Below, piece after piece: positions 5,280-35,416 of a stretch of DNA of 64,000 nucleotides. Each line of letters starts with the position of its first letter. Position 1 is the first letter of the stretch. The notes under the pieces are model-generated. The model did no database searches, was not told the origin of the DNA, and was given only the letters and a program-made list of their open reading frames with translations. The stretch lies in assembly GCF_020740795.1 (NCBI RefSeq), contig NC_067285.1, positions 79,751,342-79,815,341 on the forward strand. Reading direction: 5' to 3'. The stretch comes from Apus apus. Lineage: Eukaryota > Chordata > Aves > Apodiformes > Apodidae. A program made the translations under genes and the position numbers.

Positions 5280-6197
5280 ATGGTCTAGATGGCACAAAGT
5301 GCCTTCTCAGAAACTTTGCACATGATACAAAGCTGCTAAAGGTGGTTCATACACCACTTGATTTCACTGCCAGTTGGAAGGACCTCAACAGGCTGGTGAG
5401 ATGGGTCACCAGGGACCTCATAAAGTTAGACAAAGAGAAATTTGAAGCCTTCCACCAAGCTAGCAATAATCCTATATGCCCATGCAAGCTGGATACCACC
5501 TGGCTGGACACCAGCTTTGCAAAAAAAGACCTGTGGGTCCTGGTGGACATCAAGAAGCACATAAGACAGAAAAGTGCTCTTGCAGAAAAAAAAGCCAACA
5601 GCCTCCTGAGCTGCATAAAGTAGAGAATCACAGAAACTCCATCCTTCCCCTCTACTCAGCCCTGGTGAGCCACAAATCTGAAGTGTTGTTTGCTGCTGGC
5701 TCCCCTGCACATGAAAGGCACGTACATATTGGAGCAAGTCCAGTGAAAAGCTACAAAGATGATTAAAGAATTGGAGCATCTCTCATATGGGCACGAACTC
5801 AGAGCTCGGGCTGTCCAGCTTGGAGAAGAAAAGGCACTGGGAGGACATTATCAACATGCATAAATTCCTGATGGTAGTATAAAGATGTCAGGGCCAGGCT
5901 CTGGCATTGGTCCAATGACAGGACAAGAGGCACCAGGCACCAACTGAAATACCAGAAATGCAAACAGAAGAAACACCTTTTATGCTGTCATGATGGTCAG
6001 ACACTGGAACTGGTTGCCCAGAGAAGCTGTGGATGTCCCTTCCCTGGAAGTGTTCAAGGTCAGGCTAGACAGGGCTCTGAGCAGTCTGATCCAGGTGAGG
6101 ATTCCTGCTCATTGCAGGGGTGTTGAAACTAGATAATCTTTAAGGTGCCTTCCAATACAAACCATTCTATGATTATATGATTCCATGATTCTGTGAA
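5280..6197 (+). mobile_element. CR1 LINE fragment, 5'-truncated and decayed
   Basis: The fragment starts inside the reverse-transcriptase region: the translation near 5310-5345 resembles the F-A-D-D-T-K-L-L block with the catalytic pair lost. It runs through the C-terminal part (a DLWVLVD-like stretch and a YSALVSHKSEVL-like stretch, normally [11 protein letters not shown]). It ends with the CR1 3' UTR and a degenerate tail around 6160-6197 (TTCTATGATTATATGATTCC). Frameshifts and stops are common, so no protein is encoded. It is much older than the full-length CR1 at 9.93 kb. Confidence 0.85.
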
Positions 6198-14440: not shown

Positions 14441-15490
14441 TCACAGAATAATAGAATTGTAGAATGGTTCAGGTTGGAAGACACTTTAAAGATCATATAG
14501 ATCAAACACCCCTGCACAGATAGGGACACTACCCACTAGACCAGGTTGCTCAAAGCCCCATCCAACCTGCCCTTGAACACTTCTGGGGAGGGGTCCTCCA
14601 AAACTTCCTTGTCTCTCCACGCTCACAGAGAATAATTTCTTCCTAATATCTAACCTAAATCTACCCTCTTCCAGTTTGAAAAGGTTCCCTCTTATTTATC
14701 ACTACAAGCCCTTGGAAAAAGTCCCTCCCTAGCTCTCCTGTACCCCCCTTCAGATACTGGAAGGCAGCTACAGGGTCTCCCTGGAACCTTGTCTTCTCTG
14801 GACTGAACAACCCCAACTCTCTCAGCCTGTCTTCATAGGAGAGGTGCTCCAGCCCTCTGATCATCTTCGTGGCCCTCCTCTGGACTCACTGCAACAGCTC
14901 CGTGTCCTTCTTATGCTGGGGCCTCCACAACTGGATGCAGTACTCCAGGTGAGGTCTCATGAGAACAGAGTAGAGATGGAGAATCACCTCCCTTGACCTG
15001 GTGCCCATGCTTCTTTTGATGCAGCCCTAGGATGTTGAGCCCTTATCTTCAGGGCTGTTCTCAATCCATTCTCTGCCCAGTCTGTATTTGTGCTTGGGAT
15101 TGTCCCAATCCCAGTGCAGGATCTTGCACTTAGCCTTGTGAACTTCTTGAGGTTAGCATGGGTCCACTTTCAAGCCTGTCAAGGTCCCTCTGGATGGCCT
15201 CACTTCCCTCCAGTATGTTGACTGCACCACACAGCTTGGTGTTGTCAACAAACTTGCTCAGGGTACACTGAATTCCACCATTCATATCGACAACAAAGAT
15301 GTTAAACATCACAGGTCACAATACTGATCCCTGAGGAACACCACTAGTCATTGATGTCTACTTGGACATCAAACTGTTGACCACAGCTATGAGTGTGTTC
15401 ATTCAGCCAATTGCCTATCTATCCATTGAGTGGCCCATCCATCAAACACACCTTGTTTTCTCACTAAAAGTCCTGACAAATTTATTTGCA
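14441..15490 (-). mobile_element. CR1 LINE fragment, minus strand (copy A of an inverted pair)
   Basis: The 3' end is at the left (AGAATAATAGAATTG...GGTTGGAAG). Reading leftward on the minus strand from about 15.49 kb, the reverse-transcriptase region appears as LFNIF-like text with the catalytic block degraded (FVDNTK instead of FADDTK), then the C-terminal part. An internal deletion near 15035 removes about 70 bp present in relatives. Positions 14649-15034 match 25361-25746 on the other strand with about 7 mismatches and no gaps. No intact ORF remains. Confidence 0.85.
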
Positions 15491-19287: not shown

Positions 19288-20001
19288 GGGGTTGTCCTGG
19301 TTTGAGCCAGGATGAAGCCAGTTTTTCTTTTGCTGATTTTTTTTTCTTTTCAGTGAGCTTTCTTCAGCTAGCAACTGCGTGTTCTGCTAGGTTGATAAGA
19401 CACTGGAATGTTTTTATAATTGCTGGGCCCTCAAGGTCATGCCTTTGCTCTGCCAGCTCAGACACTGCAGGGAGATCTGTGCCCCCCTCATGGGAGGCTG
19501 GGTTAGACGGACAGCAAAATGGGCCAGAGGTATTCCATTCCATGTATCTACGTAGGCTCAGGGGAAGGTCGGAGATGACAGAAGACAACTTCCTTCCTTC
19601 CTTCTCTCTCCCTCTCTTCCGTTCATGGCCGGCGTCCGGAGACGACACCATCTGTCCATCATCGTCGACCCATCGACCTCAAGCCCTCCTGACCCTCGTA
19701 ACTCTTTGCCCTTCTCCAGCAGCAGCTCCGGGATTCCTCGGAATTGTCTCATCTGAGGGGAGTGCTGTGGGAGTTGCTGGGGGTGGGGGGAGGTGAGAGG
19801 CTTTTGCACGTATCTGAACATATTTGTATATAATTGCATATATTTTCTTATGTAATTCATTGGTGTTTAATTAAAGCTGTGCGGTTCAGTTTTCAATCTA
19901 GCCAAGTCTCTCTCTTTTTCTCTCTCTCCTTCCCTACCTGGGTGGGAGCGGGAGGGGATCGAGAGCATTGTTGTCAAACCGAGTCAAATGGTGACAGGGG
20001 T
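19288..20001. repeat. Target-site duplication GGGGT around the solo LTR
   Basis: GGGGT occurs at 19288-19292 directly before the LTR and again at 19997-20001 directly after it. Extending to 6 bp breaks the match, so the duplication is 5 bp, the same length as that around the palindromic element at 33.9-35.3 kb. Confidence 0.9.
19293..19996 (+). mobile_element. Solo LTR of an endogenous retrovirus, with a 5-bp duplication
   Basis: This 704-bp element begins TGTCCTGGTTTGAGCCAGG and ends GGTGACA (TG...CA termini). It is flanked on both sides by GGGGT (19288-19292 and 19997-20001), a perfect 5-bp target-site duplication. A polyadenylation-type signal ATTAAA is at 19870-19875. It belongs to the same family as the LTRs at 33.9-35.3 kb: the U3 start, the CACTGGAATG region, and the end-proximal pyrimidine and GATCGAGAGCATTGTTGTC blocks are shared. 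No internal retroviral sequence lies beside it, so it is a solo LTR left by LTR-LTR recombination. Open frames inside it, including one of 164 residues, are non-coding U3 sequence. Confidence 0.93.
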
Positions 20002-33758: not shown

Positions 33759-33919
33759 GAGAATGATAAAATGGTTTGGGTTGGAAGGGATCTTGAAGAT
33801 TATCTAGTTCCAATTCCCCTGCATGGGTAGGGACACCTCCCACTAGACCTAGTTGCTCAAACTTCTATCCAGCCTGGCCTTGAACACTTCCAGGGAATGG
33901 GCAGCCACAACTTCCCTGG

Positions 33920-34416
33920 TGTCCTGGTTTGAGCCAGGATGAAGCCAGTTTTTCTTTTGCTGATTCCTTTTTTTTATTTCAGTGAGCTTTCTTCAACTAG
34001 CAACTGCGTGTTCTGCTAGGATGATAACACACTGGAATGTTTTTGTAATTGCTGGGCCCTCAAGGTCGTGCCTTTGCTCTGCCGGCTCAGACACTACGGA
34101 GGGATTTGTGGCCCCCTCGTGGGAGGCTGGGTTAGACAAACAGCAAAACTGGCCAGAGAGATTCCATTCCATATATCTACGTAGGCTCAGGGGGAAGGTC
34201 GGAGATGACAGAAGAAAACTTCCTTCCTTCCTGCTTCGCTCTCTCACCGCTTCGCTTCGCCTCTCTGTCTGCCTTCCTTCTTCTCTCTTTTTCTCTTTCT
34301 TTCGTTCGTGGCCGGCATCTGGGAAAACACCATCTGCCCATCATCGTTGACCCATCGACCTCAAGCCCTCCTGACCCTCGTAACTTCTGCCTTTCTCCAG
34401 GAGCAGCTTCGGGATT
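33920..34416 (+). repeat. Partial U3 arm, inverted copy
   Basis: This 497-bp arm begins with TGTCCTGGTTTGAGCC and ends at CTTCGGGATT, inside U3. The corresponding stretch on the other arm continues with CCTTGGAATTGTC, which is absent here. It matches the complement of about 34775-35270 with only scattered differences. Open frames within it are U3 sequence and not genes. Confidence 0.9.
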
Positions 34417-34435
34417 AATTAATTAATTAATTGGG
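34417..34435. other. 19-nt filler at the tRNA 5' end
   Basis: The filler is four AATT units followed by TGGG-type ending, with GGG at 34433-34435 directly before the first base of the tRNA. It belongs neither to U3 nor to a mature tRNA-Lys. On the cDNA strand it reads CCC then AATT repeats. Reverse transcriptases are known to add non-templated C residues on reaching the 5' end of an RNA template, which fits this position. Confidence 0.7.
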
Positions 34436-34508
34436 GCCCGGCTAGCTCAGTCGGTAGAGCATGAGACTCTTAATCTCAAGGTTGTGGGTTCGTGCCCCAC
34501 GTTGGGCG
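34436..34508 (+). tRNA. tRNA-Lys(CTT) cDNA copy, 73 nt plus CCA
   Basis: A complete tRNA of exactly 73 nt with anticodon CTT at 34469-34471. The acceptor stem pairs GCCCGGC with GTTGGGC, including two G-T pairs, and the T stem pairs GTGGG with CCCAC. It is followed by CCA at 34509-34511. Nuclear vertebrate tRNA genes do not encode CCA, so this is a copy of a mature tRNA, and its CCA abuts the LTR exactly where a primer tRNA would. Against the standard vertebrate tRNA-Lys(CTT), which I recall, it has A44 for G, T48 for C and T58 for A. The T at 58 (34493) breaks the internal B box (GGTTCGA), so transcription as a real tRNA gene is unlikely. Confidence 0.9.
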
Positions 34509-34511
34509 CCA
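34494..34511 (-). other. Retroviral primer-binding site for tRNA-Lys
   Basis: On the minus strand these 18 nt read TGGCGCCCAACGTGGGGC, complementary to the 3' 18 nt of tRNA-Lys(CTT) including CCA. The site lies 9 nt downstream of the LTR end. The normal copy stops here because base 58 of the primer is modified; in this element the copy continues through the whole tRNA. Confidence 0.9.
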
Positions 34512-34520
34512 ATTATTTGT

Positions 34521-35270
34521 TGTCAACGTTTGACAACAATGCTCTCGATCCCCTCCCCCTCCCACCCAGGTAGGGAAGGAGAGAGAGAAAAAAGAGAGAG
34601 AGACTTGGCTAGATTGAAAACTGAACCGTGCAACTTTATTTAGAATACTAATACGTGATATAAGAGTGTATATATATATATAGTGATTATACAAAGGTGT
34701 GGTAGAAGCCTCTTGCCTCCCCCCACCCCCAGCAACTCCCACAGCACTTCCCTCAGATGAGACAATTCCAAGGAATCCCGAAGCTGCTCCTGGAGAAAGG
34801 CAGAGAGTTACGAGGGTCAGGAGGGCTTGAGGTCAATGGGTCAAAAATGATGGGCAGATGGTGTTTTCCCAGATGCCGGCCACAAACGAAAGAAAGAGAA
34901 AAAGAGAGAAGAAGGAAGGCAGACAGAGAGGCGAAGCGAAGCGGCAAGAGAGCGAAGCAGGAAGGAAGGAGGTTTTCTTCTGTCATCTCCGACCTTCCCC
35001 TGAGCCTACGTAGATATATGGAATGGAATCTCTCTGGCCAGTTTTGCTGTTCGTCTAACCCAGCCTCCCATGAGGGGGCCACAAATCCCTCCGTAGTGTC
35101 TGAGCCGGCAGAGCAAAGGCACGACCTTGAAGGCCCAGCAATTACAAAAACATTCCAGTGTGTTATCATCCTAGCAGAACACGCAGTTGCTAGTTGAAGA
35201 AAGCTCACTGAAATAAAAAAAAGGAATCAGCAAAAGAAAAACTGGCTTCATCCTGGCTCAAACCAGGACA
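34521..35270 (-). mobile_element. Complete LTR (U3-R-U5) of the palindromic element
   Basis: This 750-bp LTR reads on the minus strand from TGTCCTGG to GTTGACA. A polyadenylation signal AATAAA is complementary to 34635-34640. It is followed by the same GGTTCAGTTTTCAATC, pyrimidine-rich and GATCGAGAGCATTGTTGTC blocks as the solo LTR at 19.3 kb. An alternative CA end three bases further out is possible. A lysine primer is common in betaretrovirus-like (class II) elements, but the 5-bp duplication is not the 6 bp usual for those, so I leave the family open. Confidence 0.88.
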
Positions 35271-35416
35271 CCTGGGCAACCTGTTTCAACATCTCACTAC
35301 CCTCATAGTAAAGAGTTTCTTCCTAATGTCTAAACTAAATCTCCCCTCCTACAGTTTAAACCACTTACCCCTTGTCCTATTGCTACATGCCCTTGTAAAA
35401 AGTCTCTCCATAGCAG

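Follow-up and report, generated by a model that had tools for sequence, protein, structure and literature searches.

What kind of molecule left the insert at 33915..35275 of the window, the 64,000-nucleotide stretch of Apus apus DNA analysed here? The insert itself is 1351 bp long (33920-35270), starts TGTCCTGG, ends CCAGGACA and has CCTGG on either side, the left copy of this target-site duplication lying at 33915..33919 and the right copy at 35271..35275. Read along the minus strand, it consists of an LTR, a leader, a primer-binding site (PBS), the remainder of a tRNA as far as base 1, CCC, AATT four times over and an inverted stretch of 497 bp; this last stretch repeats the first 497 bp of the LTR in reverse complement and stops exactly at the LTR terminus.

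The LTR (34521..35270, minus strand) is complete, with 750 bp of U3-R-U5 running TGT...ACA; it was compared over 40 scored genomic places, the window included, and its boundary was taken from solo LTRs. Comparison with solo LTRs and PBS-bearing copies defines a 9-nt leader between LTR and PBS (ACAAATAAT; 34512..34520, minus strand), and the 18-nt lysine PBS that follows (34494..34511, minus strand) occupies the same place in related PBS-bearing copies. The plus strand of 34436..34511 reads as a complete tRNA-Lys(CTT) of 73 nt plus CCA, and the cDNA of the primer is therefore on the LTR strand. ARAGORN calls tRNA-Lys(ctt) at 34436-34511 and the Rfam tRNA model scores it at 63.5 bits (E 8e-12); CCA is not known to be encoded in animal tRNA genes. 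A 19-nt filler, AATTAATTAATTAATT plus GGG (34417..34435), joins the tRNA to the inverted U3 arm (33920..34416, plus strand), whose 497 bp terminate exactly at the U3 terminus TGTCC. The arm is 97.6% identical to 34774-35270, with 10 substitutions and 2 gaps in the pairwise alignment and 11 substitutions in 496 columns of the multiple alignment, and five variants common to both arms are absent from 31 other LTR rows. An older relative of the LTR (~81-82% identity) lies elsewhere in the window, at 19293-19979. A sequence-only reading of the window had described most of this layout: its single insertion between CCTGG repeats is exact to the base, the extension of the PBS into a whole 73-nt tRNA-Lys plus CCA is agreed on by ARAGORN and Rfam, and the inverted repeat bears out its 497-bp arm ending at the U3 terminus. 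The complete minus-strand LTR that it named is likewise present, but the solo LTRs place the LTR edge at 34521, so that 34512-34520 belong to the leader.

The insert shares with a solo LTR a single complete LTR and a 5-bp duplication, but a solo LTR has the LTR alone between its duplications, whereas the window holds a further 601 bp and adds leader, PBS, whole tRNA and inverted arm. It also differs from a normal provirus, as it has one LTR and an inverted partial U3 rather than two direct LTRs; at 1351 bp it is too short for a retroviral coding region. Normal plus-strand strong-stop DNA contains 18 nt of the primer, with the stop at m1A58, compared to 76 nt copied in the window. Finally, unlike a one-ended aberrant integrant, in which a host-joined end lacks the duplication, the window has an exact duplication at both U3 ends. 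The target was a CR1 element, which had been said to read through perfectly once the insert is removed. When the flanks are joined without the insert and one CCTGG, this is so against the CR1 copy at window positions 6005-6180, which aligns without a gap across the junction and stops matching 13 nt past it, but not against a second copy (14453-14733), which shows a 17-nt gap over the junction before the alignment continues.

To which virus does the LTR belong? A first look at the genome returned 3962 LTR candidates; 40 of them were scored, and apart from the window itself these 39 others show 92-96% identity. Among 30 loci, 17 solo LTRs had definable limits, and 16 of these are surrounded by an exact 5-bp duplication (L011, L012 and L021 could not be delimited, and L002, which is not solo, was left out); in PBS-bearing copies a leader of ~9 nt is followed by a lysine PBS. 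One locus, L033, carries a weak match to the retroviral protease domain PF00077 (E 0.0004, 21.0 bits against a cut-off of 20.7). The family is that of a lysine-primed avian endogenous retrovirus (ERV).

Copying of tRNA-Lys beyond the 18-nt PBS recurs in this genome, at 19 loci with the window included: 18 were returned by a first query made of the window's tRNA part and leader, and L055 by a second query. The tRNA lies directly behind an LTR match of the window's family at 14 of the 18 loci other than the window; because there are so many such places, and 14 of them have this arrangement, the copying beyond the PBS cannot be put down to chance. Counted over the first-query places, window included, 15 of 18 have a family LTR match at the tRNA, and an LTR is also found in L055. 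The match is just 27 nt of U3 in L044 and an inverted LTR only in L037; no LTR match was found in three old copies (L043, L047 and L048), which have in common a tail that is LTR-like by eye only. The 18 first-query loci are spread over seven contigs. Searching this genome for further LTR-tRNA-inverted LTR structures, as the sequence-only reading had envisaged, yields at least five other loci: six of the 19 (the window, L032, L036, L038, L040 and L045) have, besides an LTR, an inverted arm extending as far as the U3 terminus, and 13 have no such pair. Exact duplications of 5-6 bp occur at four of the six (the window, L036, L038 and L032). Judged by these comparisons, the window insert is one of a recurrent class in the same genome.

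The five other loci with two U3 ends vary in what lies between them. L036 has a full tRNA and an arm of ~515 nt (94%), with ATGTGG on either side, and L038 has 56 nt of tRNA and ~21 nt of U3, with CTCTT on either side. In L040, ~64 nt of tRNA are followed by 207 nt of reversed viral sequence and then 74 nt of U3, and its arms are 100% identical; the reversed stretch starts a few bases past the PBS and, when compared with six PBS-bearing copies, shows 97-99% identity to four of them and 92% to another. GGATG flanks L040 on both sides, as a duplication that is off by one extra base. L032 is the most elaborate: a full tRNA-Lys is followed by a second tRNA-like stretch, which scores as a tRNA at 32.3 bits against the Rfam cut-off of 29 and which we take to be initiator tRNA-Met, then by a whole inverted LTR with the same unusual leader, and after this by a polypurine side, a stretch of viral appearance and, last, a further, partial LTR that includes its U5 end. 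Taken together with L049:7356-9901 (C36), the whole L032 insert is surrounded by TCCCT. L045, which is the same locus as L002 (L002:996-2482, C3:62969716-62971202), consists of an LTR, 56 nt of tRNA, 28S rRNA in antisense (Rfam E 2e-15), 28S rRNA in sense (E 3e-6, below the family cut-off score) and an inverted U3 of 275 nt; its arms differ at 1 of 275 positions, and no target duplication was found at its flanks. At the start of its LTR, with TAA between, lies an antisense sequence that is probably a copy of 7SL RNA, judging by a match (E 5e-7, 39.2 bits) below the cut-off of 70.

At the remaining loci the tRNA is followed by various sequences. In L037 it is an inverted LTR up to its U3 terminus, the main LTR being absent, and in L046 and L055 it is a truncated piece of inverted LTR or, by eye, short inverted bits. 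L035 continues into viral internal sequence, 80-83% identical to the region 1.1-1.5 kb behind the PBS in five of the six PBS-bearing copies, and so probably does L044, where the sequence after the tRNA looks coding by eye. In L033, a 126-nt insert (L033:1586-1712) separates the tRNA copy from viral internal sequence with the protease domain; this viral part gave no match to the first 1.5 kb of the six PBS-bearing copies. One other place, C6:61176988, matches the 126-nt insert at 91-92% identity; it lies in a stretch with 80% G+C and 96 CpG in 730 nt. What follows the tRNA in L034, L039, L041 and L042 is without a match to the six PBS-bearing copies. In L034, L041 and L042 the tRNA end lacks a repeat of the 5 bases that precede the LTR; beside the tRNA end of L039, four of the five bases of a possible duplication can be seen by eye, and we do not count this as a duplication. 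A further candidate, L021 (L021:704-2254, C33:6934255-6935805), was rejected as a class member, having no tRNA and no clear duplication. It comprises an LTR and an inverted LTR (~602 nt) that enclose sequence resembling a viral 3′ region.

How could such a molecule arise? We think it very probable that the window insert reflects one integration of an aberrant reverse-transcription product of the lysine-primed ERV. Plus-strand strong-stop DNA would have read through and copied the entire tRNA primer, after which this strand would have been incapable of second strand transfer. Its stranded 3′ end would then have moved onto plus-strand DNA, by pairing or by switching, at position 497 of U3. Copying of this U3 template to its 5′ end would have created a second U3 end; in the relatives, the 3′ end would first have been extended on other templates, such as 28S rRNA or the viral leader. 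The resulting linear duplex, with an integrase-competent U3 end on both sides, would have been inserted normally, with a duplication. That the arm stops at the U3 terminus would follow because only molecules with a second U3 end can be inserted by integrase with a duplication. Against this scheme stand the L040 duplication that is off by one, the lack of any at L045 and the 13 of 19 loci without an arm.

The partner strand could have been a sister strand from the same virion or the strand itself. If it was another strand, itself truncated in U3, both could prime from their 3′ ends and a complete duplex would result; the self-complementary (AATT)4 at the window joint fits such mutual priming of two 3′ ends with slippage. 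If it was the same strand, the product would be a hairpin with one duplex end, which would have to be copied before insertion. A scheme of self-fold-back only, in which the strand copies the tRNA, anneals its 3′ end within its own U3 and is then elongated as far as the 5′ end of the same strand, with the hairpin later opened or copied, is possible but doubtful. The window arm does terminate at the U3 terminus, and private variants are common to both arms, which also pair as sisters in an LTR tree of 46 rows that includes 13 of the 19 loci (SH-aLRT support 97 for the window, 95 for L032 and 96 for L036). A self and a sister template predict the same sharing of variants, however, and a 5-bp duplication with two U3 ends would seem to need two duplex ends where a hairpin has one. 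In addition, the second strand carries 28S rRNA in L045 and a second tRNA in L032, of which the first strand has neither; because the partner carries this other sequence, it would not have been the same strand at these two loci. Overall we regard the sister-strand route as somewhat likelier than self-fold-back. The sequence-only reading had proposed an aberrant strong-stop product that copied its whole primer, was extended on U3 to the 5′ end and integrated with a normal duplication, and this account is supported; its further step, extension of the 3′ end on the strand's own U3, is retained as regards the U3 template but not as regards its ownership, since the shared variants fit a sister strand equally.

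Less probable still, and on the whole unlikely, is that a pair of incomplete viral DNA ends, both possessing a good U3 end, was fused by host end joining in the nucleus and then integrated. Short microhomologies or small fillers are seen by eye at the joints, and in L034, L041 and L042 one end of the insert seems to be attached to other DNA. However, joints with several 28S pieces, and jumps from tRNA to rRNA or from tRNA to viral leader, resemble reverse transcription, and a tRNA-DNA hybrid end would be a poor substrate for end joining.

We consider it very improbable that the loci descend from a multiplying non-autonomous family whose master copy once gained a tRNA. All 19 loci do have a tRNA copy in common, and eight of the 13 loci in the tree form a separate clade; because no ordinary LTR of that clade was included, this clustering is uninformative. 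The other five (the window, L002/L045, L033, L039 and L040) sit among ordinary LTRs. The inner arm ends differ among all six loci with two U3 ends, the copied tRNA ends anywhere from position 1 to 31 over 18 copies (the end in L040 was set at 13 by eye, as the automatic value of 8 overshoots by chance), and the filler bases of the query are matched by the window only. Two tRNA isodecoders, set apart by a compensating pair in the anticodon stem, have been copied, one in L032, L037, L039 and L040 (and L055, by eye) and the other in the remaining 14 loci, and the loci are therefore separate events. Breakpoints and isodecoders carry the case that this would be a recurrent accident rather than a multiplying element. 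There is equally little to be said for an assembly artefact from chimeric or fold-back reads: inverted structures are a known type of artefact, but the window arms differ by 10-11 substitutions and 2 gaps, and exact duplications occur at four loci and the loci on seven contigs. Least probable of all are two independent solo LTRs, an alternative named in the sequence-only reading, or inversion of an old provirus after insertion, as tRNA-less inverted LTR pairs such as L021 exist in the genome but in the window one duplication encloses the whole unit, the empty site can be reconstructed, the full primer tRNA with CCA is present, the truncated arm ends at the filler beside the tRNA, and the arms are sisters.

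If reverse transcription read through the primer, has the modified base at tRNA position 58 left a trace? In the window, the plus strand at 34493 has T in place of the A expected from the 18-copy comparison, which corresponds to dA opposite position 58. Given as the base opposite, position 58 is mismatched in three of the 18 copies (A in the window, C in L032, where it is the sole mismatch of the copy, and A in L043, an old copy); L055 reads T by eye, making three of 19 overall. As the copies are related, the following tests are too generous: other T positions are mismatched in 2 of 201 cells against 3 of 18 at position 58 (Fisher p 0.004), all A/T positions in 12 of 468 (p 0.015), and without the three oldest copies the comparison is 2 of 15 against 1 of ~166 (hand-counted; p 0.018). 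A pattern allowing up to three mismatches picks out 50 ordinary-looking junctions of the family; 5 of these 50 are mismatched at position 58 (four with A, one with C), against 2 of 150 at three other T positions (p 0.011, with the same relatedness). G occurs in none of eight mismatches at position 58. Other positions vary as well: 8 of 50 junctions (A, G, T) and 3 of 18 read-through copies depart from the tRNA at position 69, and we know of no modification that would explain this; 5 of 50 junctions do so at position 54, where the match has its edge; and C and G positions vary more than position 58 (position 48, for example, in 8 of 17), mostly as expected from CpG decay. Position 58 of primer tRNAs is m1A according to a review (PMC13191261), and m1A followed by G is described as giving little C signal, that is, little dG (PMC4787781); the missing G among the eight mismatches fits the m1A-then-G signature in that account. 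The excess at position 58, although it comprises few events, is suggestive of a modified nucleotide. A gene for tRNA-Lys(CTT), whose leader would be a candidate source of the AATT filler, was not found in the assembly with a 42-nt pattern allowing up to 3 mismatches, all seven places returned being among the 19 loci; the tRNA-Lys genes may lie in parts missing from the assembly.

The ordinary-looking junctions bear on how this virus normally ends its plus strand. In most of the 50, tRNA identity extends by TCGAA past the PBS, to position 54, a count that is not an independent test of the match because the pattern itself included TCGAA; TCGAA or a near form also follows the PBS in the PBS-bearing copies found by their LTR (L003, L005, L014, L019 and L025). 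Plus strands that end at position 55 or 54 are described as still usable (PMC13191261). Because the match reaches position 54 and such ends are usable, the ERV may tolerate bypass of m1A58, and full read-through may be the tail of such behaviour. A read-through pattern with the same number of mismatches gives 13 places, 12 of which belong to the 19 loci; 12 against 50 is not a rate, because ordinary proviruses have been lost to solo LTRs. The inserts discussed here would not collapse in this way, because they have no second direct LTR. The thirteenth place (C33:6710279-6710309) is a PBS junction with A at position 58; the sequence behind it differs from the usual viral one and is not clearly tRNA either. 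Two other arrangements were seen in the family. At L008:1519-2302, an LTR, its leader and 12 nt of PBS meet a PBS-leader end in inverted orientation at a self-complementary GGCGCC, maybe a tail-to-tail joint without tRNA read-through; at L029:1501-2278, the sequence behind an LTR and exactly 18 nt of PBS looks non-viral, which may mean that a normal strong-stop DNA was inserted by one end.

We see about an even chance that a broader statement holds: that plus-strand strong-stop DNAs that have copied their whole primer, and that prime mutually or on packaged host RNAs, form two-U3 duplexes that integrate naturally, that the loci record the primer, and that m1A58 bypass is maybe part of this ERV's normal replication. 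If so, genomes record the isodecoder used, the distance copied and the base placed opposite m1A58. The loci also bear on whether two U3 ends are enough for concerted integration, on whether two plus strands can meet, on the templates chosen by a stranded 3′ end, and on the tRNA isodecoders and modifications met by a past virus. Annotation may well list such inserts as LTR fragments next to a tRNA gene.

Parts of the mechanism are already known, but a search of titles and abstract starts in the open-access literature turned up no integrated insert of the LTR-full tRNA-inverted LTR kind, with a whole primer between two U3 ends; this is weak evidence of novelty. Primer read-through has here entered a germ line repeatedly, a fate that we have not found described. 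Aberrant integrants are known from ASLV and HIV, and RSV papers of Oh and Hughes are among the references of the account cited here. In the ASLV and HIV cases one end is joined by integrase and one by the host (PMC5041404); they resemble the present loci in their irregular viral DNA ends and inserted foreign sequence, but the window differs in having two U3 ends and a regular 5-bp duplication, and L034, L041 and L042 come closer than the window to these one-ended integrants. With HIV-1, plus-strand strong-stop DNA reads through the primer when tRNA-Lys lacks m1A58, according to the review cited above (PMC13191261); those are reverse-transcription products, whereas the present molecules have become part of a genome and possess an inverted U3 as well as a second U3 end. 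Many copies of 7SL and of tRNAs are packaged in retroviral particles, and an experimental recombinant has been found with 7SL sequence patched in by template switching (review PMC4997597). An LTR-tRNA-inverted LTR insert is not among the cases of host-RNA patching in the excerpt of that review, but its packaged-RNA templates can be likened to the 28S and probable 7SL sequences at L045/L002 and to the CpG-island sequence at L033.
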